Assembly (NCBI RefSeq): GCF_032854445.1
Contig: NC_088296.1
Location: forward strand, 7,121,435-7,185,434
From: Liolophura sinensis
Taxonomy: Eukaryota > Mollusca > Polyplacophora > Chitonida > Chitonidae
Length of the DNA stretch: 64,000 nt
Direction of reading: 5' to 3'
This document shows positions 2,269-61,659 of the stretch, one piece after another (positions within the stretch are counted from its first letter, which is position 1; each line of letters begins with the position of its first letter). The position numbers and the translations under genes were made by a program. The notes beneath the pieces are model-generated. The model was not told the DNA's origin and did no database searches. It saw only the letters and a list, made by a program, of their open reading frames with translations.

Positions 2269-2689
2269 ATGCTGTCCGTCTTTAATTATATTGTACCTTA
2301 TTTACGTGGTCATCACTAGTACTGTAGTTATGACAACATGTGGTCAAGATTATGAGGTCATCTATTACCTCATTGCGTCATTGCATCTATTTGGTGTTAT
2401 TTTGATGTCAGTTGTATTTGTATTCATCTACTTGTATGATTCAGTGATATTTTCCTATTTTCTGTCCTTTGTGTTCCAGCTTCTGAGAAATATGCTAGAT
2501 AAAAATGAATGATTGTGTATTATGTAATCTTTTGTTTGAATGATTGAATTAGTGTCGGTGAAATGTCATGAACCGTATGTAGTATTTTTACACGATTTTT
2601 TACGTATACGAACTTCATATTTAACGTATTCAAATTGCTGGATGGGTACCTTATCAGTAGTGCTGGTTTCCTCTCAAATACCCGAGTAC

Positions 2690-3090
2690 TTACATTACCC
2701 GATGAGTATCTTCTCAGGAGAGCTCGTTTTCTTCTCTTTCTAATACTGGGTTCACACATTACCTGGTGTGTATCTTCTCTGGAGAGCTCGTTTTCCTCTC
2801 TTTCTAATACCGGCTCTATACATTACCTGATGTGTATCTTATCTGGAAAGCTGGTTTTCCTCTCTCTGTAATACCGGCTCTATACATTACCTGATGTGTA
2901 TCTTATCTGGAAAGCTGGTTTTCCTCTCTCTGTAATACCGGCTCTATACATTACTGATGTGTATCTTCTCTGGAGAGCTGGTGTTCCTCTCTCTGTAATA
3001 CCGGCTCTATACATTACCTGATGTGTATCTTATCTGGAGAGCTGGTTTTCCTCTCTTTGTAATACCGGATCTATACATTACCTGATGGGA
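2690..3090. repeat. 64-bp minisatellite (unit 1, about 6-7 copies)
   Basis: Direct repeats with a 64-bp period: TACCGGCTCTATACATT begins at 2808 and again at 2872. Each monomer contains GGTTTTCCTCTCTCTGTAA. The array ends sharply at the shared boundary sequence GATGGGATGAAGTAATG. Apparent ORFs here are repeat artefacts. Confidence 0.92.
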
Positions 3091-7190: not shown

Positions 7191-7501
7191 ATGTGACAAA
7201 CCATACATATAACGTACAACAGAGGATAAAATTGGCACCAACATGGTATCACGTATTTTTAATTTACAAAGTCTTCTAAAAATTCTTCCTAGAAAGTAAG
7301 TGTTTATGTCGGAACACAGCTCTTATTGGATATTCTTTTTTGCTACAACGTTTTTTTTTCAATGAAGTATTTACCAGCATATAATTTGATTGACTAAGGT
7401 ATTTACTAACACTCAATTAATAAGGTAGAGTTTACCAACATGTGAAATGATTTGACGATACCGCTAAAACCTTTGTGAGACGTCATTTGTTTACTTCTTC
7501 A

Positions 7502-7864
7502 ATGTTTTTTTGCTTTTTCTTTCTTTGTTCTTCAGTCTACCTTTCTCGAAAGGGCTACAATAATAACTTGTTAACTCGTCTGGACAAGGCTGACTTAGAG
7601 CCGGAAACCGTTCCTGATAGTTTGGATATAGACGTCAAAGACTGCCCGGATGCCAAACTACTCATCAGGGCCATGAAAAACAAGGATTACTCCGGCTTTT
7701 GGTCGGACAATACGAGCAGCTACGAAGGAGAGAAGCAAATCACCCACGTGACCAACGAGCGGAAATCTCGTCTGGAATCCTTCAGGGCAATTCCCGAGCG
7801 CAAGACGGAAAAATCTGAGCAACGCTTAGTTTCTTCGTCCAAGGGAGAAAGTTTCCACCAATAA
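7502..7864 (+). CDS. Gene X, internal exon or 5' exon (unrecognised protein, unit 1)
   Basis: Open frame of 120 codons from the first ATG. A strong polypyrimidine tract followed by TTCAG ends at 7535, so the coding part probably starts at 7536 as a spliced exon. The alternative is that the hydrophobic run after the ATG (FFCFFFLCSSVYL) is a short signal peptide. The rest is charged and low in hydrophobics, with Glu, Lys and Ser-rich stretches. No domain recognised. The frame ends at TAA 7862-7864, but a second frame beginning just before the stop reads a plausible acidic peptide (VDELEDPDLYVSRR) and a third continues to about 8008, so the downstream part may be frame-shifted or spliced. Unit 2 has the same frame and the same breaks. 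Confidence 0.4.
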   Translation: MFFCFFFLCSSVYLSRKGYNNNLLTRLDKADLEPETVPDSLDIDVKDCPDAKLLIRAMKNKDYSGFWSDNTSSYEGEKQITHVTNERKSRLESFRAIPERKTEKSEQRLVSSSKGESFHQ

Positions 7865-9431: not shown

Positions 9432-9899
9432 GGTAATTAAGTTTATGTCTTCGCGGTATATCATCTGGTATCCAATTACCCTAATTCTATCAGTATCCAA
9501 ATCAAACCACCGTGAGGATATCAGCGGGTAAAAGTAATATCCACAGTCAGTTTGACAGAAAGAAAAGGCACCATTGCTGAAAACAGTTTGCAGCATAACA
9601 CGAAGTCTGAAAGCCAATCGGTTATTGAACTACCTTCATATTGCTGGTAAAATATATCAGAACATTGGACGGCTGGAGTGTACGGAAGTGTAGTCTGTTT
9701 GAGCGAGAGAGCGAAGTTCTCCCCTGGCGGCTGGAAGCCTGATTGCAGAGACGTTGTCGAATTGAATTTTATACCTTTACTTCTTTACATACATTTTGGG
9801 ATAGAGGTATATTTCATATAGGGTTGACTTATTGTTTACGAGCTCCTGTGCTTTAAGTTATAAAGTATTCAAACTCAAGAATGTTGTTTTTGTGTTCAG

Positions 9900-10345
9900 A
9901 ATTTAGGCCTACTGGCCCAAGACCAACAAGAGGCAAATTCCCACACATGGGGAGAGGCCGTGCGTGTCTGAAGCCGACGTTGGCTGCTAACTTCGCTCGT
10001 CATCTGCCACAGCCCGATTCCTCCTTAATCCGGAAGCAGCCAGCGACCAGTCCAAACATTATCCGTGACTGTCGGGAGATCAGGCCAACAAGATGTGGAC
10101 AACAGTCAGAGCAGACGACCAGCCGAGTTCACCCAAGTGACACGGGCAATGACGTCAACTCCAGCCAGGCCAGCCGTGAGCCGTCGTCGACTCAAGTCAG
10201 GTCGGATACTGTGAGATCGCCTGGGGGAGGGCCAGATCAGATTCAGAGGAAAAGCGTTGGAGAGAGACTTGTTAGCTTTGTCAGGCGACGCTGGAATCAA
10301 CTCCAGCAAAGTGCCAAACGCTTAAATTGTGCTGCAGAGCCTTGA
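9900..10345 (+). CDS. Gene X, last coding exon (unrecognised protein, unit 1)
   Basis: The frame is open from ATG 9881, but a good acceptor (TTGTTTTTGTGTTCAG) ends at 9899, so a spliced exon from 9900 is preferred. It encodes about 148 residues rich in Arg, Ser, Pro, Gln and Thr, probably disordered and basic, ending in a basic segment that may be helical (VGERLVSFVRRRWNQLQQ). No domain recognised. Stop TGA at 10343-10345. Poly(A) signals follow within 90 bp. The copy in unit 2 differs by only about two bases, both changing residues. It could be the C-terminus of gene X or an independent short gene. Confidence 0.45.
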
Positions 10346-20351: not shown

Positions 20352-21017
20352 ATGGCCGAGAGCAAGCAGAATCGGGATGATGTTCTCACATGTTCTATAT
20401 GTATGGACACATTCCGGGAACCAGTAATGCTACCCTGTCAGCACAGTTTTTGTAGGGAATGCATTGGGATGTATGCCGACAAGTCCAAATCTGTGCAGAT
20501 AGATGAGACCTCCGATACCAGGGGGAATGATGACGTCCATCTGATGGCATGCCCTGTGTGTCGGGCACCAACGAGCCTGGGGAGAGAAGGTGTGGCTGGA
20601 CTGGCTCTTAACTTTCATTTGGCAGAAATGGTGGAGAGGTTCCCTACCGATGTTAATGTTGAGGATGACATCCCATATTGTTCTCTGTGTGAGGAGGACA
20701 ATCATGCTAAAGGTGTCAAGTTTTGCACCATCTGTGGTGTGTTCTACTGTCAGGAATGTCTTGCAAATTTCCATCCAATGAGGGGGCCTCTAAAACGTCA
20801 TCGACTGATTTCGGCTCTGGAGTACCTCTCCCAGGAAACCTCACAGGGTGAAGTCAGCAGGGACCAACACTCAACTCAGCAGCCGTCATGTGCCAGACAC
20901 GGTCAGCCGTTCGTCATGTACTGTGAACCGTGTCGGATGGTGATCTGTGTGGGGTGTGTGGTTGAGCATCCGGGACATGCTATGCGGGATATACCATCTG
21001 CAGCTGAGAATGACAAG
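20352..21017 (+). CDS. TRIM exon 1: RING and two B-boxes (unit 1)
   Basis: 222 codons. C3HC4 RING ligands are Cys14, Cys17, Cys29, His31, Cys34, Cys37, Cys67 and Cys70, with a long acidic insert between the last pairs. B-box 1 ligands are Cys110, Cys113, Cys125, Cys128, Cys133, Cys136, His141 and His150. B-box 2 ligands are Cys180, His183, Cys191, Cys194, Cys199, Cys202, His206 and His209. All are intact. The donor is AAG followed by GTAACT at 21018. The 5' part of the exon probably starts at 20329. Against unit 2 I count about 46 base differences and about 25 residue changes, none at a zinc ligand. Confidence 0.95.
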
Positions 21018-21931
21018 GTAACTCAAAAAAGACATTCGTAAATCAGCCATCAACCAAAATCGATGTTCTGAGTCATTAATCATAAGGTCAACTCTCAATA
21101 CAACGATTAACACGAACCAGGAAGAAACTAAAATTTGTGCAAATTCAAAATTACGTTGGAATCACGTAAAGAGATTTGGTAAACAGTTTTCAATGATGTT
21201 AAAAAGATGCAAGGAATGTTTTGGGCGAATAACTTAAATCACTATCTAAATCGTGTATCATGTCAGTATATAGGTCGATAATCAAAATAAATATATCATG
21301 ACTTGGAACTATATATTAACCCAAAGGTTGTCATCTATAGTGAAGAATGGGTCTTTGTGTCCTGTACTGTAGTGAGTCATTTGAAAGGCGGATTTTTTAA
21401 TGTAGCGTTTTTTCCATTACAGCCAGTTGTTTTGAACAAGACGAGTGAACTGGAGAAAGTGCTACAAGAAACTAAAGAATCACTGTCAGGAGTTATGAGG
21501 CTGCACAATAAGATACAGGTTGGTATTTTCCATGACACCTGTTCAGCCTGTGTTGTACTGCATACGCTAGTGACTCATTTTGACTATGTGGAGTATTGCT
21601 ATCATTCAGAAATCCGGGTAACATACAGCTGCCAATCATCTAGTCTTAATAAAGCTGTCTTCTGTCACATATTATATATGTAGATTACAATCAAAGAGTT
21701 AAACCTGAACAGTGACGATTTTTATAAAAACAGTATACTACACGGTTTGATGCGGAGATGTATTTGCATGAAGGACGAGTTTATTTTGTCTATTTCTGGT
21801 TTATCTAATAAGACTATCGTATCATTATTATGACTTTCTGCTAAGTAACACACAAGCTATATGCCCATCTCAGACAGCTCCATTTGATGTATTATCGCCG
21901 ATAATACGCTGTCATAATAATATCTATAATG

Positions 21932-21993
<62 letters not shown>

Positions 21994-24900
21994 GTTTTGA
22001 GTGGACACTTACATGTACATCCCTAAACTAGAGGGAAATCATCTCCATCCCGGAGATACATTGTAGCTACAGTTGTGTGGCGCTTATATTTCACCCTGTT
22101 ACACATACATATATAACTTCTTGAACACACATATCTAAAGGTCTGGATGAGGCAGTAAGCGATTTTTCTGTTTGGTAGGAAAACCAGGAACTTCACACTC
22201 AGGAGGTAAAAAAGGCTTATTGTGCAGCCTTGGAAGCTTTACAAGCATGGAAACAACAGTCCTTAGATGGCATAAAAACCCGCTATTCACAGTGGAACCT
22301 GGAGTGTAGCGCTATACTCAAACATTTTCAGCTACAGACCCAGGAAATGGAGAGGATGGTACAGGCTTCCAAAGATTTGTTAGCGTCAATGGATGTCGAG
22401 TTTTTGCAGGTAAGTCAAATGTGCACATTCTCAAACACTGGTTCAGCTGCTTCAACTCCAGATGTTACCCATAACCCAACCACCCTTAGGAACTGTTATC
22501 AGGTGTTCAAATCCATCTCATGCTGCCAGATCTACTAACGTTGATTCGAGTTCAACAGTTTTGTTTTGCTCAGTAGTACCCTCCGGTCGCTGTCAACTTT
22601 TCTACCCATAACCGAACCACTGTCCGATTAAAGCAATAGAGAAGCAACATGCAATGTGAAAAAGAACATACTGCATGCTTTTTTTCAAAAACAAGGCTTG
22701 TATGAAAACAGATCTTTTGGGGAAAATTACATTGCATGAAACACCATGGAATTTATTAATCGGAATTGAGAGCTGATGTGAACTATGTAATAGAATGGAA
22801 TGTAATTGTAATCAGGGAATGGTCTAAAAGTTTTTATAACTGTGTTCTTCTAATATGTTGAGGTGAAAGTATGGCTACAGTATCTCAGTTTCGGTTATCA
22901 TCTTTACATGATTTTATGTGTTTTCAATTCTGTTTGTTGACAGGGTTCCACAGACTTCACCAAAACGTATGTATAAATGTGTTCTACCTATCTAGGTTTG
23001 TTATACATGTGCACATGACTATTGTCAGCAGATGTGTTTCTGTAACACTTAGTACCAGCACTGTAGTTGTCCAAAACATGACCCAAGTGTAAAATATATC
23101 TAATGTTTAAACATACGTTTGTCCAGACAAATCAGATCTAATCTACGTTGCACACAAGATTACTGCACGACTGTGTCTCTTTGTTTTCTCTTCTCTTCTC
23201 ACAGAGTTGATGACCAGCTGAATGATATAAGAACAGATCTGGATAGACATGAGGTCAGCAAACAGAAGCTTCTAGATTCTGTACAACATGACCACGTTGT
23301 CCCTAGACAGGTGACTGTAAAAGAGACAGTGCAAGAACGTCAGGGCTTAGAACAAGCCGTCGGTGGACAAATATCACCCCTACGTGTTACTAGTAAGTTC
23401 GTATATGTGTGAAAGGTATACAGTAGGGTGTGCTCAAAAGTCATAAACGACTGTAGGCTTTACATTACTATGTGCATCAAGGGAGTGAGAGAGTGCTTGG
23501 AGTTTAACTTCGTACTTAACAACTTTTCAGTCATATGACGACGTCATGTGCATCGAAGACACAAACATAAAAGTATGAGGTGTACGCTAGGGTGTGAAAA
23601 AAACACAGACTGATGTCAGATTTTCACTAGGATGTGGAAAAAAGAAAAAACGTAATGCAAGGTGTAAGTAGGGTTTACACAGAAGGCACAAACTAATGTG
23701 AGGCATACACTCGGGTGGGCAAAACAAGATACAAACTAATGTGAAGCATGCAATAGGGTGGGCAAAACAAGATACAAACTAATGTGAGGCATGTAATGGG
23801 ATGAGCAAAAATGTACAAACTAATGTGAGACATGCCATTTTGTGGGCAAAAAAGGTACAAAGTAATGGGAGACATACACTAGGGTGGACAGAAAAGATGC
23901 ATACTAATGGGGGGAATGCACAAGAGTGGGCAAAAAAGGTACAAACTAATATGAGACATGCAATACAGAGGGCAAAAAGTTACAAATTAATGTGAGGCAT
24001 GCATTAGGGTTGGCAAAACAGATACAAACTATTGTGAGGCATGCACTAGGGTGGGCAAAACAAGATAAAACCTAATGTGAGGCATGCAATAGGGTTGACA
24101 AAACAGATACAAACTAATGTGAGGCATGCACTAGGGTGGGCAAAACAAGATGCAAACTAATGTAAGGCATGCAAAAAGGTGGGCAAAACAAGACACAAAC
24201 TAATGTGAGGCATGCAGTAGGGTGGGCAAAACATATGCAAACAAATGTAAGGCATGCAAAAGGGAGAGCGGAAAAGGTACAAACTAATGTGAAGCGTGCA
24301 CTAGGGTGGGCAAAAAAAGATACAAACTAATGGGAGGCATGCAATAGGGTGGGCAAAACAAGATACAAACTCATGTGAGGCATGCGATACGGTGGGCAAA
24401 AATATGCAAACAAATGTAAGGCATGCAATAGGGTGTACACTGAAGACACAAACTAAAGTCAGGCATGCACTAGGGTTGACAAAACAAGATACAAACTAAT
24501 GTAAGGCATGCACTAGGGTGGGCAAAACAAGACACAAACTTATGTAAGGCATGCGATGGGGTGGGCAAAAATATGCAAACAAATGTAAGGCATGCAAAAG
24601 TGAGGACGAAAAAGGTAAAAACTAATGTGAGACATGCACTAGGGTGGGCAAAACACGATACAAACTAATGTGAGGCTTGCAAAAGGGTGGGCAAAACAAG
24701 GCACAAGGTGAGGCATGCAGTAGAGTTGGCAAAAAAGAGGAAACGAATGTAAGGCATGCAATAGAGTTGTTAAAACAAGATACAAACTAATGTGAGACAT
24801 GCAATAGGGTAGGCAAAAATGGTACAACGTAATGTAAGACATACACTAGGGTGGACAGAATGCAGATGCAGACTAATGTGAGGCATGCATAAGAGTGAGC

Positions 24901-27900
24901 AAAACAAGATACAAACTAATGTGAGCCAAGCGATAGGGTGGGCAAAAGAAGATACAAACTAATGTGAGGCATGCACTAGGGTGGGCAAAAACAGATACAA
25001 TCTAATGTGAGGCATGTAATATCGTGGGCAAAACAAGGTACAAACTAATATGAGGCATGTACTAGGGTGGGCAAAAGAAGATACAAACTAATGTGAGGCA
25101 TGCACTAGGGTGGGCAAGACAAGATACAAACTAATGTGAGGCATGCAATAGGGTGGACAAAACAAGGTACAAACTAATGTGAGGCATGTACTAGGGTGGG
25201 CAAAATAAGATACAAACTAATGTGAGACATGCACTAGGGTGGGCAAAACAAGATACAAACTAATGTGAGGTATGCAATAGGGTGGGGAAAAGAAGGTACA
25301 AACTAATGTGAGGTATGCAACAGGGTGGGCAAAACAGATACAAACTAATGTGAGGCATACTCTAGGGTGGGCAAAAGAAGGTACAAACTCATGTGAGGCA
25401 TGCACTAGGGTGGGCAAAACAGATACAAACTAATGTAAGGCATGCACTAGGTGGGCAAAACAAGATACAAACTAATGTAAGGCATGCACTAGGGTGGGCA
25501 AAACAGATACAAACTAATGTGAGGCATACACTAGGGTGGGCAAAACAAGATACAAACTAATGTGAGGCATGCACTAGGGTGGGCAAAACAAGATACAAAC
25601 TAATGTGAGACATGCAATAGGGCGGGCAAAACAAGATACAAACTAATGTGAAGCATGCACTAGGGTGGGCAAAACAAGATACAAACTAATGTAAGACATG
25701 CAATAGGGCGGGCAAAACAAGATAGAAACTAATGTGAGGCATGCAGTAGGGTGGGCAAAACAAGATACAGACTAATGTAAGGCATGCAATAGGGTGGGCA
25801 AAACAGATACAAACTAATGCGAGACATGCAATAGGGTGGGCAAAACAGATACAAACTAATGTGAGGCATACACTAGGGTAGGCAAAAGAAGATACAAACT
25901 GATGTGAGGCATGTAATAGGGTGGGCAAATCAAGATGCAAACTAATGTGAGGCATGCACTAGGGTGGGCAAAACAAGATACAAACTAATGTTAGGCATGC
26001 AACAGGGTGGGCAAAAGAGATACATTCATACAGTAAGGTGTGCCAAGAACACACAAGCTGACACAAGGTATACAGTAGGGTGTGTACAGAAGATACAAAC
26101 TAATGTAAGGTATACACTGGGGTGTGCCTAGAAGAGACACACTAATGTGAGGTATACAGTGTACTGTGTCCAGAAGACGCAAACTAATGTGAGGTATACA
26201 GTAGGGCGTGCACAGAAGACAAATACTAATGTGAGGTATACAGTGTGCTGTGTCCAGAAGACAAATAGTAATGTGAGGTATACAGCAGGGTGTGCACAGA
26301 AGACACAAGCTAATGTGAGGTATAAAACAGGGTGTGTTTAGAAGACAAAAATCAGTGTGATGTATACAATAGGTTGTGTACAGAGGACACTAAATAGTGT
26401 ATGGTACTCGTAAAGTGTAAAGGGGGCTCTCTGAAGTCTAAAGGCATTCAGTAGGCCATTCTAAGAAATATAAAGCCAGTGTAAGCTATAAACACAATGG
26501 TTCGCTAAAAATTAATAAAAATGTAATTTATACAACAGTATATTTATGTTTGTTTTAAAAATGGAAAGCACATTGCAGAGTAATATATCAGCAGCTGTAC
26601 AGTTAGCGCAGGACAGATTGTTGTGTACCCCTGAGTGTCTGAGTGATATTTACCTCGTGTACAAATCAGCTGATGTACTGTTAGGACAGAACAGATAACA
26701 TATTGTAGTCTACCCCTCAGTGTGTAGACCTGTGATATTTAACACATTACTGATAGCAGAATATATTTCAACTTTCTTAATTATTAATGAAACAAGCATC
26801 CAAGTTAAAACTGAGTATTACTTACCAGACTCAAATGTAGTCAAACATGTATTTCAAAGGCAAAAACACCCTCATATCTGTTTCATTACTAATATTAAAG
26901 GGTTTCCATCTATGTATAAAGAAATAATTGTTGATCTAGATATATTTCCTCACTTGATATAAGTTTGCTTTTAATATTTAAATATATTAACTGTCTTTTA
27001 AAAAAATATATTGGAGAAACTTCAATAGTTAGAAGATTCCAATACTTCTTTATTACTAATAATTCTGATGGATTAAATAGTCTTTCGAACATTGTGGTAA
27101 AAGAATGTCACTTGGTAAGTTATGTGTGGCGAGTTAGCTCCCTTACTAGAGGACGGCTTCGGTAGCTGGTCACTCCACGAATGACAACAGGTCTACCACA
27201 GCTTCATAGTGAGTTTTGTGTTCAAATGTGCCATAACTGATAACTAAAACCAAGTATCGGATAGAGGAAGGTATTGTTCTTGTTGTAGGTAATAAGTTTC
27301 AAACAAATTAGAGCGCTAAATGTCTGTATTTTAACGCATTACTCGGCCTATGTCGTACCCGTCAGTTAGTTATATATCCAGTTCTTGTCGAAGCACAACT
27401 CTTTTAAACTTGCTGAAAATGACAGAAATCAGTGTATAAATTACATTCATGTCAGCAGTATATGTTATTTTATTCCAAGAGATTGTGTGGAAAAAGTAAA
27501 ACCACAGTATGTATACAAGTATTTACACCTAAGCCTTACAGTGTGTGTTTATGAAGTGCTGTTGTTTATACTGCTTCTGTTGTGTGTTTGCAGAGCCGAC
27601 GCTGAGATTCACAGAGACAGACGATAGTGAGCTGAGAATTACTGACAGCGGCTCTGGGGTAGAGGGTGTGGGCTTGTACAGGGGGTTGTGGAGAGCTGTG
27701 ACAGACGGGGGTTACCAGACGGGCAGGTTCTACTGGGAGATACACATCACCTGTTCACCTGGCTGTTACTATCATGTAGGAGTCACACAGGAGAGCTGTG
27801 GCGTGAGTGAGGAGACAGACCCTGGCCGCAACACCTGGTTCATTGTGATGGAGTACCGTGGTGATGAGGTCAGCTGTTATACTCACAGTGGTGGTGGTGA

Positions 27901-28171
27901 GATCAAACCTGGCTATCTACAGTGGAGACGTTACACACGACCTCATCACCTGGGTGTGTACCTGGACTGTGATGACCAAACACTGACAGTCCTGGACTGT
28001 GACAACAACCAGGTAATGTACACTGACAGTGGTGTTATCGTCACAGAGCCTCTCGTGCCATGGGTTGGGTTTTATGTCTGGTCTGGATCTGTGTCTGTGT
28101 CTGCTCGTCTGGTAACGGGTGACTCTACAACTCTGCCTCCAGTTCTCTGTGATATGATAAGCACTTCCTGA
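20352..28171 (+). CDS. TRIM protein, RING-Bbox1-Bbox2-coiled coil-SPRY, six coding exons (unit 1)
   Basis: Joined exons 20352-21017, 21423-21518, 22179-22409, 22944-22966, 23205-23392 and 27594-28171 give 1,782 nt, a 593-residue open protein with every junction in phase (0, 0, 0, 2, 1). TRIM proteins are cytosolic RING E3 ubiquitin ligases that dimerise through the coiled coil and bind targets through the C-terminal B30.2/SPRY domain. Many of them act in innate immunity. Here RING is at residues 14-70, B-box 1 at 110-150, B-box 2 at 180-209, coiled coil at about 223-340, linker at 340-401 and SPRY at 403-593. The start is the first ATG after a strong acceptor (20328), with A at -3 implied by AAATT and G at +4. 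No single TRIM orthologue is claimed. The substrate is unknown. Confidence 0.95.
21423..21518 (+). CDS. TRIM exon 2: start of coiled coil, 96 bp (unit 1)
   Basis: 32 codons between acceptor CATTACAG and donor GTTGGT. The length equals the 96-bp coiled-coil exon of vertebrate TRIM genes. Heptad-like Leu and Val spacing. Identical base for base in unit 2. Confidence 0.93.
21935..21988. repeat. (TA)n microsatellite in TRIM intron 2 (unit 1)
   Basis: About 27 TA units without interruption. The unit 2 counterpart (52545-52641) is longer and interrupted. Confidence 0.95.
22179..22409 (+). CDS. TRIM exon 3: coiled coil, 231 bp (unit 1)
   Basis: 77 codons between TTTGGTAG and GTAAGT, rich in Glu, Gln, Lys and Leu, with an amphipathic helical pattern. 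The 231-bp length is again the classical TRIM size. Four residue changes against unit 2. Confidence 0.93.
22944..22966 (+). CDS. TRIM micro-exon 4, 23 bp (unit 1)
   Basis: The 23-bp exon lies between TTGTTGACAG and GTATGT. It supplies seven codons plus two bases, and only with it does exon 3 join exon 5 in frame. Its length matches the well-known 23-bp TRIM micro-exon. It sits inside an apparent short ORF in another frame that should be ignored. Confidence 0.9.
23205..23392 (+). CDS. TRIM exon 5: linker, 188 bp (unit 1)
   Basis: Acceptor CTTCTCACAG, donor GTAAGT at 23393. Encodes about 62 charged residues linking coiled coil to SPRY, with no recognised fold. Length differs from vertebrate TRIM linker exons. 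Four residue changes in unit 2. Confidence 0.9.
23406..26400. repeat. 43-bp minisatellite array in TRIM intron 5 (unit 1)
   Basis: About 70 head-to-tail copies with a 43-bp period (for example CATGC at 25568 and 25611). The consensus contains GGGTGGGCAAAAC, GATACAAACTAATGTGAGG and CATGCACTA. The centre is homogeneous. Both edges (before about 23700 and after about 26000) carry older variants with TACAGTAGGGTGTG. Monomers lack stops, so long minus-strand frames with a 43-residue repeat appear; these are artefacts. The array ends about 1.2 kb before the SPRY exon. Confidence 0.95.
23482..23545 (-). mobile_element. SINE family A tail fragment in the 43-bp array (unit 1)
   Basis: About 64 bp carrying TGCTTGGAGTTTAAC and AGTCATATGACGACGT, between TGTGCATCAA and TGTGCATCGA, which look like a target-site duplication. 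Also in unit 2 (54132-54203). Confidence 0.7.
26401..27593. other. End of TRIM intron 5 (unit 1)
   Basis: Near 26591-26745 a block of about 80 bp is repeated twice in diverged form (CAGCTG..GACAGA..CCCCTCAGTGTG). The rest is AT-rich, closely conserved with unit 2, and shows no exon that fits the phase. The acceptor follows at 27593. Confidence 0.6.
27594..28171 (+). CDS. TRIM exon 6: B30.2/SPRY domain (unit 1)
   Basis: 191 codons and a stop in one exon, acceptor TGTGTTTGCAG. The PRY half begins PTLRFTETDD. The domain signatures TGRFYWEIHI (WEVE motif) and HLGVYLDCDDQTLTVLD (LDYE motif) are clear. The C-terminus ends in a Thr/Ser/Leu-rich tail. Compared with unit 2, changes cluster between conserved strands, for example right after the PRY start, around GCYYHVGV, and in the WVGFYVW segment. 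Confidence 0.95.
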
Positions 28172-31799: not shown

Positions 31800-32254
31800 T
31801 TTCCTCTCCCTAGTCCTCACATTACCCGATGAGTATTTTCTCAGGAGAGCTGGTTTTCCGCTCTTTCTAATACTGGGTCCACATATTACCCAATAGGCAT
31901 CTTCTCAAAAGAGCTGGGTTATCTCTCTTTCTATTACTGGGTCCACATGCACATTACCTGATGTGTATCTTCTCTGGAAAGCTGGTTTTCCCCTCTCTGT
32001 AATACCAGATCCACACATTACCTGGTGTGTATTTGCTCTGGAAAAGTGGTTTTTCTCTCTCTGTAAGACCGCATCTATAATTACCTGTGTATCTTTTCTG
32101 GAGAGCTGTTTTTCCCCTCTCTGTAATACCAGATCCACACATTACCTGGTGTGTATCTGCTCTGGAAAAGTGGTTTTTCTCTCTCTGTAATACCGCATCT
32201 ATAACTACCTGTGTATCTTTTCTGGAGAACTGGTTTTCCTCTCTCTGTAATACG
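31800..32254. repeat. 64-bp minisatellite, first array (unit 2)
   Basis: About seven diverged monomers that belong to the divergent upstream block. The array stops in mid-monomer at GTAATACGG. Confidence 0.9.
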
Positions 32255-32394
32255 GTAGTGTCGGTGAAATGTCATGAACCGTATGTAGTATTTTTACACG
32301 ATTTTTTACGTATACGAACTTCATATTTAACGTATTCAAATTGCTGAATGGGTACCTTATCAGTAGTGCTGGTTTCCTCTCAGATACCCGAGTA

Positions 32395-33240
32395 CTTACA
32401 TTACCCGCTGAGTATCTTCTCAGGAGAGCTCGTTTTCCTCTCTTACTAATACTGGGTCCACATATTACCCGATGAATATCTTCTGAGGAGAGCTTGGTTT
32501 TCTCTCTTTGTAATACTGAGTCCACACATTACCTGATGAGTATGTTCTCTGGAGAGCTGGTTTTCCTCTCTCTTTCTAATACTGGGTCCACACATTACCT
32601 GGTGTGTATCTTCTCTGGAGAGCTGGTTTTCCTCTCTCTGTAATACCGGCTCTATACATTACCTGATGTGTATCTTATCTGGAAAGCTGGTTTTCCTCTC
32701 TCTGTAATACCGGATCTATACATTACCTGATGTGTATCTTATCTGGAGAGCTGGTTTTCCTCTCTTTGTAATACCGGATCTATACATTACCTGATGTGTA
32801 TCTTCTCTGGAGAGCTGGTTTTCCTCTCTCTGTAATACCAGATCTATACATTACCTGGTGTGTATCTTATCTGGAGATCTGGTTTTCCTCTCTTTGTAAT
32901 ACCGGATCTATACATTACCTGATGGGTATCTTATCTGGAGATCTGGTTTTCCTCTCTTTGTAATACCGGATCTATACATTACCTGTGTGTATCTTATCTG
33001 GAGAGCTGGTTTTCCTCTCTTTGTAATACCGGATCTATACATTACCTGTGTGTATCTTATCTGGAGAGCTGGTTTTCCTCTCTCTGTAATACCGGCTCTA
33101 TACATTACCTGATGTGTATCTTATCTGGAAAGCTGGTTTTCCTCTCTCTGTAATACCGGATCTATACATTACCTGATGTGTATCTTATCTGGAGAGCTGG
33201 TTTTCCTCTCTTTGTAATACCGGATCTATACATTACCTGA
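32395..33240. repeat. 64-bp minisatellite, second array (unit 2, about 13 copies)
   Basis: Starts after a second copy of the array leader (32255-32394, matching 2552-2690) and is roughly twice as long as the array in units 1 and 3. Alternating TGTGTATCTTATCTGG monomers suggest recent local expansion. Confidence 0.92.
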
Positions 33241-37361: not shown

Positions 37362-37672
37362 ATGTGACAAACCATACATATAACGTACAACAGAGGATAA
37401 AATTGGCACCAACATGGTATCACGTATTTTTAATTTACAAAGTCTTCTAAAAATTCTTCCTAGAAAGTAAGTGTTTATGTCGGAACACAGCTCTTATTGG
37501 ATATTCTTTTTTGCTACAACGTTTTTTTTTCAATGAAGTATTTACCAGCATATAATTTGCTTGACTAAGGTATTTACTAACACTCAATTAATAAGGTAGA
37601 GTTTACCAACATGTGAAATGATTTGACGATACCGCTAAAACCTTTGTGAGACGTCATTTGTTTACTTCTTCA

Positions 37673-38035
37673 ATGTTTTTTTGCTTTTTCTTTCTTTGTA
37701 CTTCAGTCTACCTTTCTCGAAAGGGCTACAATAATAACTTGTTAACTCGTCTGGACAAGGCTGACTTAGAGCCGGAAACCGTTCCTGATAGTTTGGATAT
37801 AGACGTCAAAGACTGCCCGGATGCCAAACTACTCATCAGGGCCATGAAAAATAAGGATTACTCCGGCTTTTGGTCGGACAATACGAGCAGCTACGAAGGA
37901 GAGAAGCAAATCACCCACGTGACCAACGAGCGGAAATCTCGTCTGGAATCCTTCAGGGCAATTCCCGATCGCAAGACGGAAAAATCTGAGCAACGCTTAG
38001 TTTCTTCGTCCAAGGGAGAAAGTTTCCACCAATAA
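37673..38035 (+). CDS. Gene X, internal or 5' exon (unit 2)
   Basis: Same 120-codon frame as in unit 1; the residues are almost identical (one Ser to Thr and one Glu to Asp difference noted). The probable splice acceptor ends at 37706. The stop and the alternative downstream frame are unchanged. Confidence 0.4.
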   Translation: MFFCFFFLCTSVYLSRKGYNNNLLTRLDKADLEPETVPDSLDIDVKDCPDAKLLIRAMKNKDYSGFWSDNTSSYEGEKQITHVTNERKSRLESFRAIPDRKTEKSEQRLVSSSKGESFHQ

Positions 38036-39361: not shown

Positions 39362-39830
39362 CGGTAATTAAGTTTATGTCTTCGCGGTATATCATCTGGT
39401 GTCCAATTACCCTAATTCTATCAGTATCCAAATCAAACCACCGTGAGGACATTAGCGGGTAAAAGTAATATCCACGGTCAGTTTGACAGAAAGAAAAGGC
39501 ACCATTGCTGAAAACAGTTTGCACCATAACACGATGTCTGAAAGCCAATCGGTTATTGAACTACCTTCATATTGCTGGTAAAATATATCAGAACATTGGA
39601 CGGCTGGAGTGTACGGAAGTGTAGTCTGTTTGAGCGATAGAGCGAAGTTCTCCCCTGGCGGCTGGAAGCCTGATTGCAGAGACGTTGTCGAATTGAATTT
39701 TATACCTTTACTTCTTTACATACATTTTGGGATAGAGGTATATTTCATATAGGGTTGACTTATTGTTTGCGAGCTCGTGTGCTTTAAGCTATAAAGTATT
39801 CAAACTTAAGAATGTTGTTTTTGTGTTCAG

Positions 39831-40276
39831 AATTTAGGCCTACTGGCCCAAGACCAACAAGAGGCAAATTCCCACACATGGGGAGAGGCCGTGCGTGTCT
39901 GAAGCCGACGTTGGCTGCTAACTTCGCTCGTCATCTGCCACAGCCCGATTCCTCCTTAACCCGGAAGCAGCCAGCGACCAGTCCAAACATTATCCGTGAC
40001 TGTCGGGAGATCAGGCCAACAAGATGTGGACAACAGTCAGAGCAGACGACCAGCCGAGTTCACCCACGTGACACGGGCAATGACGTCAACTCCAGCCAGG
40101 CCAGCCGTGAGCCGTCGTCGACTCAAGTCAGGTCGGATACTGTGAGATCGCCTGGGGGAGGGCCAGATCAGATTCAGAGGAAAAGCGTTGGAGAGAGACT
40201 TGTTAGCTTTGTCAGGCGACGCTGGAATCAACTCCAGCAAAGTGCCAAACGCTTAAATTGTGCTGCAGAGCCTTGA
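39831..40276 (+). CDS. Gene X, last coding exon (unit 2)
   Basis: Same 148-residue Arg/Ser/Pro/Gln-rich frame after a TGTTTTTGTGTTCAG acceptor. One Ile to Thr and one Ser to Arg change against unit 1. AATAAA follows at 40367-40372. Confidence 0.45.
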
Positions 40277-50937: not shown

Positions 50938-51603
50938 ATGGCCGAGAGCAAGCAGAATCGGGATGATGTTCTCACATGTTCTATATGTATGGAAACATTC
51001 CGGGAACCAGTAATGCTACCGTGTCAGCACAGTTTTTGTAAAAAATGCATTGGTTTGTATGCTGACAAGTCCAAATCTGTGCAGATAGATGAGACCTCCG
51101 ACAGCAGGGGGAATGATGACGCTCATCTGATAGCATGCCCTGTGTGTCGGGCACCAACGAATCTGGGAAGAGAAGGTGTGGCTGGACTGGCGCCTAACTT
51201 TCATCTGGCAGAAATGGTGGAGAGGTTCTCTACTGCTGTTAAGGTTGAGGAAGAGATCCCATATTGTTCTCTGTGTGAGGAGGACAATCATGCTAAAGCT
51301 GTCAAGTTTTGCACCATCTGTGGTGTGTTCTACTGTCAGGAATGTCTTGCTATTTGTCACCCAATGAAGGGGCCCCTGAAACGTCACAGACTGATTTCGT
51401 CCCAGGAATACCTCTCCCAGGAAACCTCACAGGGTCAAGTCAGCAGGGACCAACAATCAACTCAGCAGCCGTCATGTGCTAGACACGGTCAGCCGTTCAT
51501 CATGTACTGTGAACCGTGTCGGATGGTGATCTGTGTGGTGTGTTTGGTTGAGCATCCGGGACATGCTATGCGGGATATACCATCTGCAGCTGAGAATGAC
51601 AAG
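50938..51603 (+). CDS. TRIM exon 1: RING and two B-boxes (unit 2)
   Basis: 222 codons with all 24 zinc ligands conserved. Changes include Arg35-Glu36 to Lys-Lys just before RING Cys37, and several acidic or small residue swaps between RING and B-box 1. Donor AAG with GTAATG. Confidence 0.95.
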
Positions 51604-52551
51604 GTAATGCGAAAAAGACATTCGTATATCAGCCATCAACCAAAATCGATGTTCTGAGTCATTAATCATAAGGTCAATTCTCAATACAACGATTAACACG
51701 AACCAGGAAGAAACTAAAAATTTGTGCAAATTTAAAATTACGGTGGAATCAAGTAAAGAGAAGTGGTAAACAGTTTTCAATGACGTTAGAAAGACGCAAG
51801 GAATTTTTTTGGCGAGTAACTTAAATCACTATCTAGTCGTGTTTAATGTTAGTATATAAATCGATAATCAAAATAAACATATCATGACTTGGAACTATAT
51901 ATTAACCCAAAGGTTGTCATCTATAGTGAAGAATGGGGTTTTGTGTCCTGTACTGTAGTGAGTCATTTGAAAGGCGGATTTTTTAATGTAGCGTTTTTTT
52001 CATTACAGCCAGTTGTTTTGAACAAGACGAGTGAACTGGAGAAAGTGCTACAAGAAACTAAAGAATCACTGTCAGGAGTTATGAGGCTGCACAATAAGAT
52101 ACAGGTTGGTACTTTCCATGACACCTGTACAGCCTGTGTTGTACTGCACATGCTGGTGACTCGTTTTGACTGTGGAGTATTGCTATCGCTCAGAATTCCG
52201 GGTAACATACAGCTGTCAATCATCTGGTCATGATAAAGCTGTCTTCTGTCACATATTATATATGTAGGTTACAATTAAAGAGTTAAATCCGAACAGTGAC
52301 GATTTTTATAAAAACTTAAACACTCTCCGAAGCATGTAAGACTCCACCATCTCGCCCTGTTTGATGCGGAGATGTATTTGCATGAAGGACGAGTTTATTT
52401 TGTCTATTTCTGGTTTATCTAATAAGACTATCGTATCATTATTATGGCTTTCTGCTAAGTAACACACACGCTATATGCCATCTCAGACAGCTCCATTTGA
52501 TATATTATCGCCGATAACACGCTGTCACAATAATATCTATAATATACATAT

Positions 52552-52647
<96 letters not shown>

Positions 52648-55600
52648 TTTGAGTCGACACTTACATGTACATCCCTAAACTACAGGGAAATCCCCTCCAT
52701 CCCGGAGATACATTGTAGCCACAGTTGTGTGGCGCTTATATTTCACCCTGTTACACATACATATATAACTTCTTCAACACACATATCTAAAGGTCTGGAT
52801 GAGGCAGTAAGCGATTTTTCTGTTTGGTAGGAAAACCAGGAACTTCACACTCAGGAGGTAGAAAAGGCTTATTGTGCAGCCTTGGAAGCTTTACAAGCAT
52901 GGAAACAACAGTCCTTAGATGGTATAAAAACCCGCTATTCACAGTGGAGCGTGGAGTGTAGCGCTATACTCAAACATTTTCAGCTACATACCCAGGAAAT
53001 GGAGAGGATGGTACAGGCTTCCAAAGATTTGTTAGCGTCAATGGACGTCGAGTTTTTGCAGGTAAGTCAAATGTGCACATTTTTAAACACTGGTTCAGCT
53101 GCTTCAACTCCAGATGTTACCCATACCCCAACCACCCTTAGGAACTGTTATCAGGTGTTGAAATCCATCTCATGCTGCCAGATCTACTAAGGTTGATTTG
53201 AGTTTAACAGTTTTGTTTTGCTCAGTGGTACCCTCCGGTCGCTGTCAACTTTTCTACCCATAACCGAACCACTGTCCGATTAAAGCAATAGAGTGGCAAC
53301 ATGCAATGTGAAAAAGAACATACTGCATGCTGTTTTTCAAAAACAAGGTTTGTATGAAAAACAGATCTTTGGGGGAAAATTACATTGCATAAAACACCAT
53401 GGAATTTATTAATCGGAATTGAGAGCTGATGTGAACTATGTAATAGAATGGAATGTAATTGTAATCAGGGAATGGTCTAAAAGTTTTTATAACTGTGTTC
53501 TTGTAATATGTTGAGGTGACAGTATAGCTACAGTATCTCAGTTTCGGTTATCATCTTTACATGATTTTATGTGTTTTCAATTCTGTTTGTTGACAGGGTT
53601 ATACAGACTTCACCAAAACGTATGTATAAATGTGTTATACCTCTCTAGGTTTGTTATACGTGTGCACATGACTATTGTCAGCAGATGTGTTTCTGTAACA
53701 CTTAGTACCAGCACTGTAGTTGTCCAAAACATGACCCGAGTGTAAAATATATCTAATGTTTAAACATACGTTTGTCCAGACAAATCAGATCTAATCTACG
53801 TTGCACACAAGATTACTGCACGACTGTGTCTCTTTGTTTTCTCTTCTCTTCTCACAGAGTTGATGACCAGCTGAATGATACAAGAACAGATCTGGAGAGA
53901 CATGAGGTCAGCAAACAGAAGCTTCTAGATTCTGTACAACATGACCACGTTGTCCCTAGACAGGTGACTGTAAAAGAGACAGTGCAAGAACGTCAGGACT
54001 TAGAAAGAGCTGTCGGTGGACAAATATCACCCCTACGTGTTACAAGTAAGTTCGTATATGCATGAAAGGTATACAGTAGGGTGTGCTCAAAAGTGATAAA
54101 CGACTGTAGGCTTTACATTACTATGTGCATCAAGGGAGTGAGAGAGTGCTTGGAGTTTAACGTCGTACTTAACAACTTCTCAGTCATGTGACGACGTCAT
54201 GTGCATCGAAGACACAAACATAAAAGTATGAGGTGTACGCTAGGGTGTGAACTAAACGCAGACTGATGTCAGGTTTTTCACTAGGGTGTGGGAAAAAGAA
54301 AAAACGTAATGCAAGGTGTAAGTAGGGTTTACACAGAAGTGACGAACTAATGTGAGGAATACATTCGGGTGGGCAAAACAAGATACAAACTAATGTGAGG
54401 CATGCAATAGGGTGGGCAAAACAAGATACAAACTTATGTGAGGCATGCACTAGGGTGGGCAAAACAAGATACAAACTAATGTGAGGCATGTAATGGGATG
54501 GGCAAAAAATGTACAAACTAAATGTGAGACATGCAATAGGGTGGGCAAAATAGGTACAAAGTATTGTGAAACATACACTAGGGTGGACAGAAAAGATGCA
54601 AACTAATGAGGGGAATGCTTAAGAGTGGGCAAAAAAGGTACAAACTAATGTGAGACATGCAATAAGGAGGGCAAAAAGTTACAAACTAATGTGAGACATG
54701 CACTAGGGGGCAAAACATACAAACTATTGTGAGGCATGCACTAGGGTGGGCAAAACAAGATGCAAACAAATGTGATGCATGCACTAGGGTGGGTAAAACA
54801 AGATACAAACTAATGTGAGACATGCACTAGGGTGGGCAAAACAAGATACAAACTAATGTAAGGCATGCAATAGGGTGTACACTGAAGACACAAAATAACG
54901 TCAGGCATGCAGTAGGGTTGGCAAAACAAGATACAAACTAATGTAAGGCATGCAATAGGGTGGGCAAAACAAAACACAAAATAATGTAAGGCATGCAATA
55001 GGGTGGGCAAAACAAGACACAAACTAATGTAAGGCATGCAGTTGGGTGGGCAAAAAATATGCAAACATATGGGAGGCATGCAAAAGGGTGGGCAAAACAA
55101 GATACAAACTAATGTGAGGCTTTCACTAGGGTGGGCAAAACAGATACAAACAAATGTGAGGCATGTACTAGAGTGGGCAAAACAAGATACAAACTAAGGT
55201 GAGGCATGCACTAGGGTGGGCGAAACAAGATACAAACAAATGTGAGGCATGCAAAAGGGTGGGCAAAACAAGATACAAACAAATGTGAGGCATGCAAAAG
55301 GGTGGGCAAAACAAGATAGAAACTAATGTGAGGCTTGCGCTAGGGTGGGCAAAACAGATACAAACAAATGTGAGGCATGCAAAAGGGTGGGCAAAACAAG
55401 ATAGAAACTAATGTGAGGCTTGCACTAGGGTGGGCAAAACAAGATACAAACAAATGTGAGGCATGCAAAAGGGTGGGCAAAACAAGATACAAACAAATGT
55501 GAGGCATGCAAAAGGGTGGGCAAAACAAGATACAAACAAATGTGAGGCATGCAAAAGGGTGGGCAAAACAATATACAAACAAATGTGAGGCATGCAAAAG

Positions 55601-58522
55601 GGTGGGCAAAACAAGATACAAACTAATGTGAGGCTTGCACTAGGGTGGGCAAAACAAAATACAAACTAAGGTGAGGCGTGCAGTAGAGATGGCAAAAAAG
55701 AGGAAACGAATGTAAGGCATGCAATGGGGTTGTTAAAACAAGATACAAACTAATGTGAGGGGTGCTGTAGGGTGTACACAGAAGGCAGAATTAATGTGAG
55801 GCATGCATAAGGGTGGGCATATCAAGATACAGACAAAGGTGAGGCATGCACTAGGTTGGGCAAAACAAGATAGAAACTAATGTAAGGCTTGTAAAGGGGT
55901 GGGCATAAAATCTACAAACTAATGTGAGACACGCAATAGGGTAGGCAAAAAAGGTACAACGTAATGTAAGACATACACTAGGGTGGACAGAATGCAGATG
56001 CAGACTAATGAGGGGCATGCATAAGAGTAGGAAAAACAAGATACAAAGTATTGTGCGGCATGCACTAGGGTGGGCAAAACAAGATACAAACTAATGTAAG
56101 GTTTGTAAAGGGGTGGGCAAAAAATCTACAAACTAATGTGAGACATGCAATAGGGTAGGCAAAAAAGGTACAACGTAATGTAAGACATACACTAGGGTGG
56201 ACAGAATGCAGATGCAGACTAATGAGGGGCATGCATAAGAGTAGGAAAAACAAGATACAAAGTATTGTGCGGCATGCACTAGGGTGGGCAAAACAAGATA
56301 CAAACTAATGTGATGCATGCAACAGGGTGGGCAAAAAAGATATAATCATACAGTAAGGTGTGCCAAGAACACACAAGCTGATACAAGGTACACAGTAGGG
56401 TGTGTACAGAAGACACAAACTAATGTAAGGTATACACTGGGGTGTGCCTAGAAGAGACACACTAATGTGAGGTATACAGTGTGCTGTGTCAAGAAGATGC
56501 AAACTATTGTGAGGTATACTGTAAGGCGTGCACAGAAGACAAATACTAATGTGAGGTATACAGTGTGCTGTGTCCAGAAGACAAATGCTAATGTGAGGTA
56601 TACAGTAGGGTGTGCAGAGAAGACACAAGCTAATGTTAGGTATACAGCAGGGTGTGCAGAGAAGACACAAGCTAATGTGAGGTATAAAGCAGGGTGTGTT
56701 TAGAAGACAAAAATCAGTGTGATGTATACAATAGGTTGTGTACAGAGGACACTAAATAGTGTATGGTACTCGTAAAGTGTAAAGGGGGCTCTTTGAAGTC
56801 TAAAGGCATTCAGTAGGCCATTCTAAGAAATATAAAGCCAGTGTAAGCTATAAACGCAATGGTTCGCTAAAAATTAATAAAAATGTAATTTATACAACAG
56901 TATATTTATGTTTGTTTTAAAAATGGAAAGTACATTGCAGAGTCATATATCAGCAGCTGTACAGTTAGCGCAGGACAGATTGTTGTGTACCCCTGAGTGT
57001 CTGAGTGATATTTACCTCATGTGTACAAATCAGCTGGTCTACTGTTAGGACAGAACAGATAACATATTGTAGCCTACCCCTCAGTGTGTAGACCTGTGAT
57101 ATTTAACACTTTACTGATAGCAGAATATATTTCAACTTTCTTAATTATTAATGAAACAAGTATCTAAGTTAAAACTGAGTATTACTTACTAGACTCAAAT
57201 GTAGTCAAACATGTATTTCAAAGGCAAAAACACCCTCATATCTGTTTCATTACTAATATTAAAGGGTTTCCATCTATGTATAAAGAAATAATTGTTGATC
57301 TAGATATATTTCCTCACTTGATATAAGTTTGCTTTTAATATTTAAATATATTAACTGTCTTTTAAAAAATATATTAGAGAAACTTCAATAGTTAGAAGAT
57401 TCCAATACTTCTTTATTACTAATAATTCTGATGGATTAAATAGTCTTTTGAACATAGTGGTAAAAGAATGCCACTTGGTAAGTTATGTGTGGGCGAGTTA
57501 CCTCCCTTACTAGAGGACGGCTTCGGTAGCCGGTCACTCCACGAATGACAACAGGTCTACCACAGCTTCATAGTGAGTTTTGTGTTCAAATGTGCCATAA
57601 CTGATAACTAAAACCAAGTACCGGATAGAGGAAGGTATTGTTCTTGTTTTAGGTAATAAGTTTCAAACAAATTAGAGCGCTAAATGTGTGTATTTTAACG
57701 CATTACTCGGCCTATGTCGTACCTGTCAGTTAGTTATATATCCAGTTCTTGTCGAAGCGCAACTCTTTTAAACTGGCTAAAAATGACAGAGATCAGTGTA
57801 TAAATCACATTCATGTCAGAAGTATATGTTATTTTATTCCAAGAGATTGTGTGGAGAAAGTAAAACCACGGTATGTGTACACCTCAGTTTTACAGGGTGT
57901 GTTTATGGTTTGCTGTTGTTTATACTGCTTCTGTTGTGTTTTTGCAGAGCCGACGCTGAGATTCACAGAGACAGACGACAGGAAGCTGAGAATAACTGAC
58001 AGCGGCTCAGTGGTAAAGGCTGAGGACTTGTGTCGGGATGGGAGGTGGAGGAGAGCTGTGACAGACGGGCTTTACCAGACGGGCAGGTTCTACTGGGAGA
58101 TACACATCACCTGTTCACATGGCTGTTACTGTCGTGTAGGAGTGACACAGGAGAGCTGTGATGTGAGGGGGAGGACAGACACTGGCCGTAACTCCTGGTA
58201 CATTGTGATGGTGTACCGTGGTGATAAGGTCGAGTGTTATGGTCACAGTGGTGGTGAGATCAAACCTGACTATCTACAGTGGAGACGTTACACACGACCT
58301 CATCACCTGGGTGTGTACCTGGACTGTGATGATCACACACTGACAGTTCTGGACTGTGACAACAACCAGGTAATGTACACTGTCAGTGATGTTATCGTCA
58401 CAGAGCCTCTCGTGCCATCGGTTGAGTTTGGTGTCCGGTCTGGATCTGTGTCTGCTCGTCTGGTAACGGGTGACTCTGCAACTCTGCCCCCAGTTCTCTG
58501 TGATATGATAAGCACTTCCTGA
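50938..58522 (+). CDS. TRIM protein, six coding exons (unit 2)
   Basis: Joined exons 50938-51603, 52009-52104, 52831-53061, 53597-53619, 53858-54045 and 57948-58522 give 1,779 nt and 592 residues, fully open and in phase. Same layout as the unit 1 protein: RING, B-box 1, B-box 2, coiled coil, linker, SPRY. An extra ATG sits directly before the chosen start (50935-50937). I chose 50938 because it aligns with unit 1 and has A at -3 and G at +4; initiation at 50935 would add one Met. By eye about 89% of residues in exon 1 match unit 1, 100% in exon 2, about 95% in exon 3 and about 82% in the SPRY exon. A functional paralogue is likely, with a different binding surface. Confidence 0.95.
52009..52104 (+). 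CDS. TRIM exon 2: coiled coil, 96 bp (unit 2)
   Basis: Identical to the unit 1 exon although the flanking introns differ by several percent. Confidence 0.93.
52545..52641. repeat. (TA)n microsatellite in TRIM intron 2 (unit 2)
   Basis: Longer than in unit 1 and interrupted by AATA steps. Includes a spurious Tyr/Ile ORF. Confidence 0.95.
52831..53061 (+). CDS. TRIM exon 3: coiled coil, 231 bp (unit 2)
   Basis: 77 codons. Six base differences from unit 1, four of them altering residues (Lys to Glu, Asn-Leu to Ser-Val, Gln to His). Confidence 0.93.
53597..53619 (+). CDS. TRIM micro-exon 4, 23 bp (unit 2)
   Basis: Same borders and phase as unit 1, with one Ser to Tyr change. Confidence 0.9.
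53858..54045 (+). CDS. TRIM exon 5: linker, 188 bp (unit 2)
   Basis: Same borders as unit 1, seven base differences, four residue changes. Confidence 0.9.
54066..56760. repeat. 43-bp minisatellite array in TRIM intron 5 (unit 2)
   Basis: About 62 copies. 55200-55640 is homogenised for a variant with AAACAAATGTGAGG and GCATGCAAAAGGG that is rare in unit 1. Edges match unit 1 edges closely, while the interior does not align copy for copy. Confidence 0.95.
55861..56288. repeat. 214-bp higher-order repeat inside the 43-bp array (unit 2)
   Basis: A block of five variant monomers (landmark GTAAAGGGGTGGGCA at 55891 and 56105) is duplicated with a 214-bp offset, nearly identical. Unit 1 has one related block only (near 24800). 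Confidence 0.85.
56761..57947. other. End of TRIM intron 5 (unit 2)
   Basis: Counterpart of 26401-27593, including the doubled 80-bp block. No additional exon seen. Acceptor TGTTTTTGCAG ends at 57947. Confidence 0.6.
57948..58522 (+). CDS. TRIM exon 6: B30.2/SPRY domain (unit 2)
   Basis: 190 codons and stop. WEIHI and LDCDD strand motifs are identical to unit 1. Between them the loops differ: two residues longer after the PRY start, one Gly shorter in the SGG loop, two residues shorter near the C-terminal SVS. I count about 52 substitutions, roughly 40 of them changing residues. Confidence 0.95.
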
Positions 58523-61231: not shown

Positions 61232-61659
61232 TTTACTGTCTATGCTCTCTGTCTTTAATTATATTGTACCTGATTTAGGTGGTCATCAATAGTATTGTAG
61301 CTATGAGAGCGTGTAGTCAAGATTATGAGGTCATCTATTAGCGCATGGCGCCATTGCATCTGCTTGGTGCTTTTGTATTTGTATTCATCTACATGTATGA
61401 TCCAGTGATATTTTGTCACTTTCTCTCCTTTGTGATCCAACTTCTGAGAAATATGCTAAATAAAAATGAATGATTGTGTATTATGTAATCTTTTGTTTGA
61501 ATGATTTGAATTAGTGTCGGTGAAATGTCATGAACCGTATGCAGTATTTTTGCACTATTTTTTACGTATACGAACTTCATATTTAACGTATTCAAATTGC
61601 TGGATGGGTACCTTATCAGTAGTGCTGGTTTCCTCTCAAATACCCGAGTACTTACATTA

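Follow-up and report, generated by a model that had tools for sequence, protein, structure and literature searches.

Why does the last exon of a tandemly repeated gene differ so strongly between neighbouring copies: by selection, by exchange with other copies, or by both? This question is raised by a stretch of 64,000 nucleotides of the chiton Liolophura sinensis (G000:C2:7121435-7185434; hereafter the window, meaning the whole stretch that was analysed), which is part of contig C2 of a 609-Mb genome. Two complete tandem units lie about 30 kb apart in it, together with portions of adjoining units, and each complete unit carries a six-exon gene of the TRIM type on the plus strand; its splice sites are canonical and its frame is open. 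A RING and two B-box-like fingers come first, followed by three exons whose type and length fit a coiled coil, and the last exon encodes a C-terminal PRY-SPRY (B30.2) domain. A preliminary description had placed this exon of unit 1 at 27594-28171, which is borne out by an AG acceptor, a phase-1 start and a stop codon that ends at 28171. As the cause of divergence it had named either diversifying selection or conversion, with a more distant paralogue as the donor. The data of the family favour both jointly: short-tract conversion largely confined to the SPRY exon very probably shuffles variants among dispersed paralogues, and diversifying selection keeps the replacements. The two exons concerned are:

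27594..28171, plus strand: exon 6 of unit 1, PRY-SPRY exon, the putative shuffled and diversifying cassette (Pfam SPRY, E 1e-6; codons from 27596)
57948..58522, plus strand: exon 6 of unit 2, PRY-SPRY exon, the paralogous cassette (Pfam SPRY, E 7.3e-11)

Replacement differences in the SPRY exon

The genes belong to a large TRIM family centred on one chromosome. A search of the genome DNA with the SPRY exon gave 93 candidates, and 33 of the best 40, which were scored, lie on C2; with exon 1 as the query there were 95 candidates, and 34 of the 40 scored are on C2. The 40 SPRY copies were fetched with their flanks. An open frame of 187–206 codons is found in 39 of them, which encode 39 distinct proteins, and L018, whose frame is broken, was excluded from all SPRY counts. 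Two near-duplicates (L017 of L015, L023 of L019) were left out of the third-position, window and neutral-model counts and of those on a differentiation measure resembling the fixation index (Fst-like). Copies lacking a subfamily partner were excluded from the Fst-like and window analyses, and low-occupancy columns from these as well as from the third-position and neutral-model analyses and those of the squared correlation between sites (r2) and of the pairwise homoplasy index (PHI-type). Figures for exons 1–5 come from the 12–20 copies that have those exons inside the fetched stretch.

Replacement differences per site (pN) average 0.0898 among the 39 copies and silent ones (pS) 0.0423, with pN above pS in 738 of 741 pairs. 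The ratio of replacement to silent rates (dN/dS) is 2.20, with a codon bootstrap range of 1.63–2.98 and every one of 1000 replicates above 1; a second alignment gave a pN/pS of 1.97 and pN above pS in 731 of 741 pairs. The bootstrap, split-half and per-codon tests dispense with a tree, which would suffer from recombination. Forty codons chosen in a randomly drawn half of the copies reach a pN/pS of 4.1 in the half not used for choosing them, with a minimum of 2.9 over 200 splits, and codons outside the top 40 stand at 1.13. A neutral coalescent that gives each codon its own genealogy and takes theta from silent sites predicts 0.40 codons with four or more amino acids; the count observed is 44 of 189. 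Seventeen codons pass p < 0.01, against about 2 expected. At least six amino acids occur at 12 codons, and all seven intron clusters with more than one copy show the replacement excess.

Unlike the SPRY exon, the exons for the RING/B-box part and the coiled coil are under constraint in these genes. Exon 1 has a pS of 0.270 and a pN of 0.101 (pN/pS 0.37; 12 copies, pN above pS in none of 55 pairs), exon 2 values of 0.220 and 0.090 (0.41; 16 copies, 5 of 120 pairs), exon 3 values of 0.251 and 0.062 (0.24; 17 copies, 0 of 136 pairs) and exon 5 values of 0.133 and 0.082 (0.61; 20 copies, 48 of 190 pairs). Silent divergence of the SPRY exon (0.04) is about six-fold below that of exon 1 (0.27); taken as a whole, then, this exon does not diverge fast. 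Nor does it outpace introns in general, as had been proposed: its silent sites are the least diverged among the coding parts measured, and over the 741 pairs the adjacent 700 bp of intron (0.169) exceed both exon pS (0.042) and pN (0.090), with pN above the intron value in 66 of 741.

Where do the variable residues sit? The changes had been assigned to loops, which holds at most partly. Variable alignment columns follow one another at 91, 93, 95, at 98, 100, 102 and at 166, 168, 170, and most of their neighbours are nearly fixed, an alternation of variable with invariant residues as expected for one face of a beta-strand. An AlphaFold model built from the two SPRY domains of the window is of low confidence (pLDDT 52.1, pTM 0.57); its best 27 matches in the PDB are PRYSPRY domains (MID2, TRIM36 and others) at a TM score of about 0.44, led by 9r11_B (E 9.8e-7). 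A mapping by hand onto this low-confidence model places 13 of the 17 strongest codons in predicted strands. The variable surface probably consists of strands plus loops rather than loops alone, a point that the model is too weak to settle. The 17 codons would provide a concrete map of the likely binding surface.

Probable exchange of the last exon among subfamilies

Does the SPRY exon share the history of the gene that carries it? Between the ends of this exon subfamily structure is nearly lost, and its codons are near linkage equilibrium, the silent ones included. Beyond 15 bp, r2 between informative SPRY sites is 0.032–0.036, compared with 1/38 = 0.026 for no association. The 15 silent sites give an r2 of 0.035, with four gametes in 49.5% of pairs, and r2 amounts to 0.09 in the adjacent intron and 0.17 downstream. 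Codon differences between subfamilies average 42.0 (standard deviation 5.3), against 41.6 (4.8) when codon columns are permuted.

Grouping the copies by intron subfamily yields Fst-like values of 0.70 in the intron, a partly circular figure, and 0.54 in the downstream flank, which lies outside the grouping. Across 38 silent SPRY columns the value is 0.035, attained in 60 of 200 permutations. The borders can be located in 60-bp windows with subfamilies set from the far intron only: the values are 0.56 and 0.40 in the flank and drop to 0.01 where the window spans the exon start; they range from −0.09 to 0.26 within the exon, stand at 0.10 across its end and rise to 0.68 in the first window that is entirely downstream.

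Subfamily structure is kept in the upstream exons. Exons 1, 3 and 5 have Fst-like values of 0.64, 0.63 and 0.60, and the SPRY exon in the same copies 0.01, 0.03 and 0.00. Exon 1 distance is correlated with intron distance at a rho of 0.50 and with SPRY distance at 0.02; the correlation of exon 5 with intron distance is weaker (0.10). Relatives by exon 1 are local, the seven best of 40 scored matches lying at C2 7.11–7.35 Mb (within 0.25 Mb). Relatives of the unit 1 SPRY exon are scattered, and the neighbouring unit 2 is the last of 40 scored matches. The PRY-SPRY exon thus appears to behave as a semi-independent cassette, and the remainder of the gene stays with its own lineage.

How could such a pattern arise? 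Ectopic gene conversion, in tracts mostly shorter than the exon, would move variants between paralogues over many megabases, and its repetition would lower the silent divergence of the SPRY exon. It would halt near the exon ends, where the flanking intron and downstream DNA of the subfamilies would be too different to pair. Diversifying selection would maintain copy differences at the binding surface. Two forces would then be separated in one exon: exchange would reduce silent divergence and remove linkage, and selection would retain the replacement differences. The products may act like antiviral TRIMs, with the SPRY domain binding a target that is foreign or variable and the RING end ubiquitinating what is bound, and the family would form a germline repertoire of specificities. 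We infer both the SPRY ligand and the immune use, the latter by analogy with TRIM5alpha, finTRIM and NLR-B30.2. On this basis the shuffled SPRY exon looks like an inherited way of keeping a varied recognition repertoire. A further-reaching version would make it a unit of dedicated germline diversification: some feature of the exon or its edges would turn it into a preferred conversion target chromosome-wide, the TRIM paralogues would share a near-panmictic stock of SPRY codon variants, and an animal lineage that lacks adaptive immunity would thereby possess a combinatorial and continually renewed set of TRIM specificities. We regard this version as conceivable but doubtful.

Weighing exchange and selection

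Several observations weigh against conversion within the exon combined with diversifying selection, or limit it. Taking the best 40 of 93 SPRY candidates biases SPRY divergence downwards. Because the copies had been chosen by SPRY similarity, a check was made on 10 loci picked by exon 1 whose SPRY exons are outside the 40. The fetched stretch includes a SPRY match for seven of the 10. Of these, L047 was dropped for a frameshift, L050 and L054 are partial and L052 is cut at residue 176, which leaves six usable loci. Compared with the 39 copies they show a SPRY pS of 0.058 and a pN of 0.111: pS is somewhat higher, with silent divergence still four- to five-fold below that of exon 1. Traces of subfamily structure are found as well. 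SPRY replacement columns have an Fst-like value of 0.071, above all 200 permutations, and windows inside the exon reach 0.26, 0.15 and 0.14. There is a small surplus of long shared runs, which are longer in same-subfamily pairs, and in the largest intron subfamily, whose 8 copies include three close relatives, r2 is 0.30. Conversion tracts were not identified as discrete events among the SPRY copies. A PHI-type permutation test found no distance signal in the SPRY exon (the observed value was matched or undercut in 883 of 1000 permutations); this null result is expected at saturation and uninformative, because the sites are already unlinked, and is no positive evidence either.

The pair of units from which the question arose belongs among these points. 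Its counts are reproduced closely: 51 of 564 SPRY positions differ in the codon alignment, about 39.8 by replacement and about 11.2 silently (some 52 and 40 had been reported for substitutions and replacements), and 51 of 569 differ in the DNA alignment, with five codon columns gapped in one copy in the codon alignment. Intron 3 differs at 17 of 534 positions (about 18 reported) and exon 2 at 0 of 96, as described. The other parts amount to 46/666 in exon 1, 67/1061 in introns 1 and 2, 38/1162 in the intron 5 tail and 36/399 in the 400 bp downstream. The claim of an exon that outpaces its introns stands for intron 3 (p = 8e-5 by Fisher test) and for the tail of intron 5 (p = 1.3e-6); it is borderline for introns 1 and 2 (p = 0.057) and fails for the downstream flank (p = 1.0) and family-wide. 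Likewise, replacements predominate as a count but not per site, where a pN of 0.094 meets a pS of 0.079 (dN/dS 1.21, Fisher p = 0.61). The ratio of the pair is indistinguishable from 1, in contrast to that of the 39 copies, and the pair alone was discarded as proof of selection.

Silent differences in exon 1 of the two units (20352-21017 / 50938-51603) number 21 of about 151, far above those of exons 2 and 3 and of intron 5, for which reason the pair itself can be taken as a mosaic. Since its divergence is uneven along the length and its replacement rate does not differ from the silent one, it proves neither interpretation. Could a single conversion tract account for the differences? No fully matching donor was found, the best of the 39 other scored copies being 92% identical to unit 1, and codons look almost freely reassorted across intron subfamilies; one tract is therefore insufficient.

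Could diversifying selection alone suffice, if independent recurrent replacements at the same codons erased the family structure without any exchange? The multi-allelic codons, with at least six amino acids at 12 of them, and the recurrence of the excess in every multi-copy intron cluster are in its favour. However, the silent sites of the SPRY exon are also unstructured (0.035 versus 0.54–0.70 in the flanks) and unlinked, their divergence of 0.04 is too low for recurrent mutation to have scrambled them, and a level about six-fold below that of the RING exon needs homogenisation. The silent-site argument draws on 38 columns with many rare variants, and its power is limited. All in all, we consider selection on its own to be quite unlikely. 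The reverse case, conversion without diversifying selection, supposes an exon that is homogenised and relaxed, with pN above pS owing to constrained silent sites or to GC-biased conversion. The GC content of 0.52 in the exon versus 0.33 in the flanks would suit it, as would the ratio of 1.13 outside the top 40 codons. It is nevertheless very improbable in our view: dN/dS is well above 1, and the excess is concentrated in codons that replicate in held-out copies. The share of changes between A/T and G/C is 71% for replacement and 78% for silent polymorphism; replacements thus show no excess of such changes, and GC-biased conversion was rejected on this ground. Exon 1, moreover, has a similar GC (0.505) and third-position GC (GC3, 0.514), yet a pS of 0.27 and a pN/pS of 0.37.

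A mutational origin would be site-directed hypermutation at particular codon positions, with the first and second bases changing and the third staying. The third base is indeed almost fixed in the most variable codons, and position 3 accounts for 8 of their 116 single-base replacement steps against 13–16% expected from the code. This deficit is mild and mostly explained by the genetic code plus selection, and silent sites are as unlinked as replacement sites, which indicates recombination; we give hypermutation hardly any credence. Conversion mediated by cDNA was dismissed by reasoning: it would mix exons 1–5 too, and those remain subfamily-bound.

Related systems and further features of the window

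Short-tract conversion in the SPRY exon joined to diversifying selection invites comparison with known systems. In primate TRIM5alpha, a RING-type E3 ligase, the binding surface of the SPRY domain is under positive selection, and in this the chiton genes are probably alike. TRIM5alpha, however, is one gene that varies between species, whereas the diversity seen here lies among paralogues of one genome, with exchange.

The finTRIM genes are nearer in this respect. As far as the available portion of their report goes, van der Aa et al. 2009 describe a large teleost TRIM family with its B30.2 domain under positive selection, which also affects part of the RING/B-box region, and one main GARD breakpoint (PMC2657112). 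The chiton family shares with finTRIM its size and a diversified B30.2 under positive selection, but its exon 1 is constrained (pN/pS 0.37) and exchange spans the whole SPRY exon.

The closest parallel in the way of working, not in descent, is found in the NLR-B30.2 genes of zebrafish. According to the sections available of Howe et al. 2016, conversion acts across groups in B30.2 and within groups in NACHT, B30.2 is under positive selection and most of the genes are on one chromosome arm; the authors propose that substitutions are combined across groups by conversion tracts that fall short of the length of the exon (PMC4852459). Here, too, a large family sits mainly on one chromosome, and its B30.2/SPRY exon appears to be exchanged across groups under positive selection. 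The chiton gene model differs in having a RING and B-boxes in place of a NACHT/NLR core. Moreover, loss of structure is placed here at the exon ends in 60-bp windows and extends to silent sites and linkage equilibrium, for which those sections of the zebrafish report hold no counterpart. The present case is a TRIM version of the NLR-B30.2 logic with sharper borders. Its contrast within one gene, of a constrained, subfamily-bound RING and coiled coil with a free SPRY exon, makes the NLR-B30.2 proposal testable in another gene type, and confirmation in pedigrees would allow the rate at which the germline repertoire is renewed to be measured. A literature search found no description of exon-confined SPRY shuffling in invertebrate TRIM genes, which does not prove its absence.

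The predicted proteins have 593 (unit 1) and 592 (unit 2) residues. Pfam matches support the RING (zf-RING_UBOX, E 8.4e-12 and 1.8e-11 for units 1 and 2) and the B-box fingers (zf-B_box, E 1.1e-8 and 4.4e-8; ANCHR-like_BBOX, E 1.7e-9 and 5.2e-8). The exon sizes of 96, 231 and 23 bp resemble the usual layout of class C-IV TRIM genes. The remaining features are as follows:

20352..21017, plus strand: exon 1 coding sequence of unit 1, RING and two B-box-like zinc fingers, 222 codons (Pfam; family pN/pS 0.37)
21423..21518, plus strand: exon 2 of unit 1, 96 bp (splice sites, open frame; same sequence in unit 2; family pN/pS 0.41)
22179..22409, plus strand: exon 3 of unit 1, 231 bp, expected coiled coil (splice sites, open frame; family pN/pS 0.24)
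22944..22966, plus strand: exon 4 of unit 1, 23 bp (splice sites, frame)
23205..23392, plus strand: exon 5 of unit 1, 188 bp (splice sites, frame; family pN/pS 0.61; Fst-like 0.60)
23581..26420, no strand assigned: minisatellite array (43/42-bp) in intron 5 of unit 1, approximate limits (repeat families D1-D3)
50938..51603, plus strand: exon 1 coding sequence of unit 2, RING and B-boxes (Pfam, gene model)
52009..52104, plus strand: exon 2 of unit 2 (gene model)
52831..53061, plus strand: exon 3 of unit 2 (gene model)
53597..53619, plus strand: exon 4 of unit 2 (gene model)
53858..54045, plus strand: exon 5 of unit 2 (gene model)

In both units the 42/43-bp minisatellite fills intron 5 just 5' of the SPRY exon (about 54200-56800 in unit 2), and it is the most divergent portion of the unit pair (328 of 2501 aligned bases). 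It might influence recombination. Other arrays, with units of about 64 bp, lie between the gene units at 31800-33240 and also at 2640-3090 and 61500-62050.

Upstream, the window is adjoined by unit 0 (L018, G000:C2:7112400-7122300), whose SPRY exon starts at locus position 8013 and loses its frame after 11 codons; judged from these letters, at least this copy of the array looks like a pseudogene. The SPRY exon of L047, the next unit downstream, is the frameshifted one dropped above. Two open reading frames are kept between the units, one of 137 codons (7451-7864 / 37622-38035) and one of 162 codons (9857-10345 / 39788-40276); a Pfam scan of five other open reading frames of the window, including these two, gave no match above the cut-off. 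Elsewhere in the assembly, G000:C99 contains seven COX1 matches from 8348 to 102844 at a spacing of about 15.5 kb, with TGA read through, a series that would correspond to head-to-tail mitochondrial genomes, either as an assembly artefact or as a nuclear insertion.

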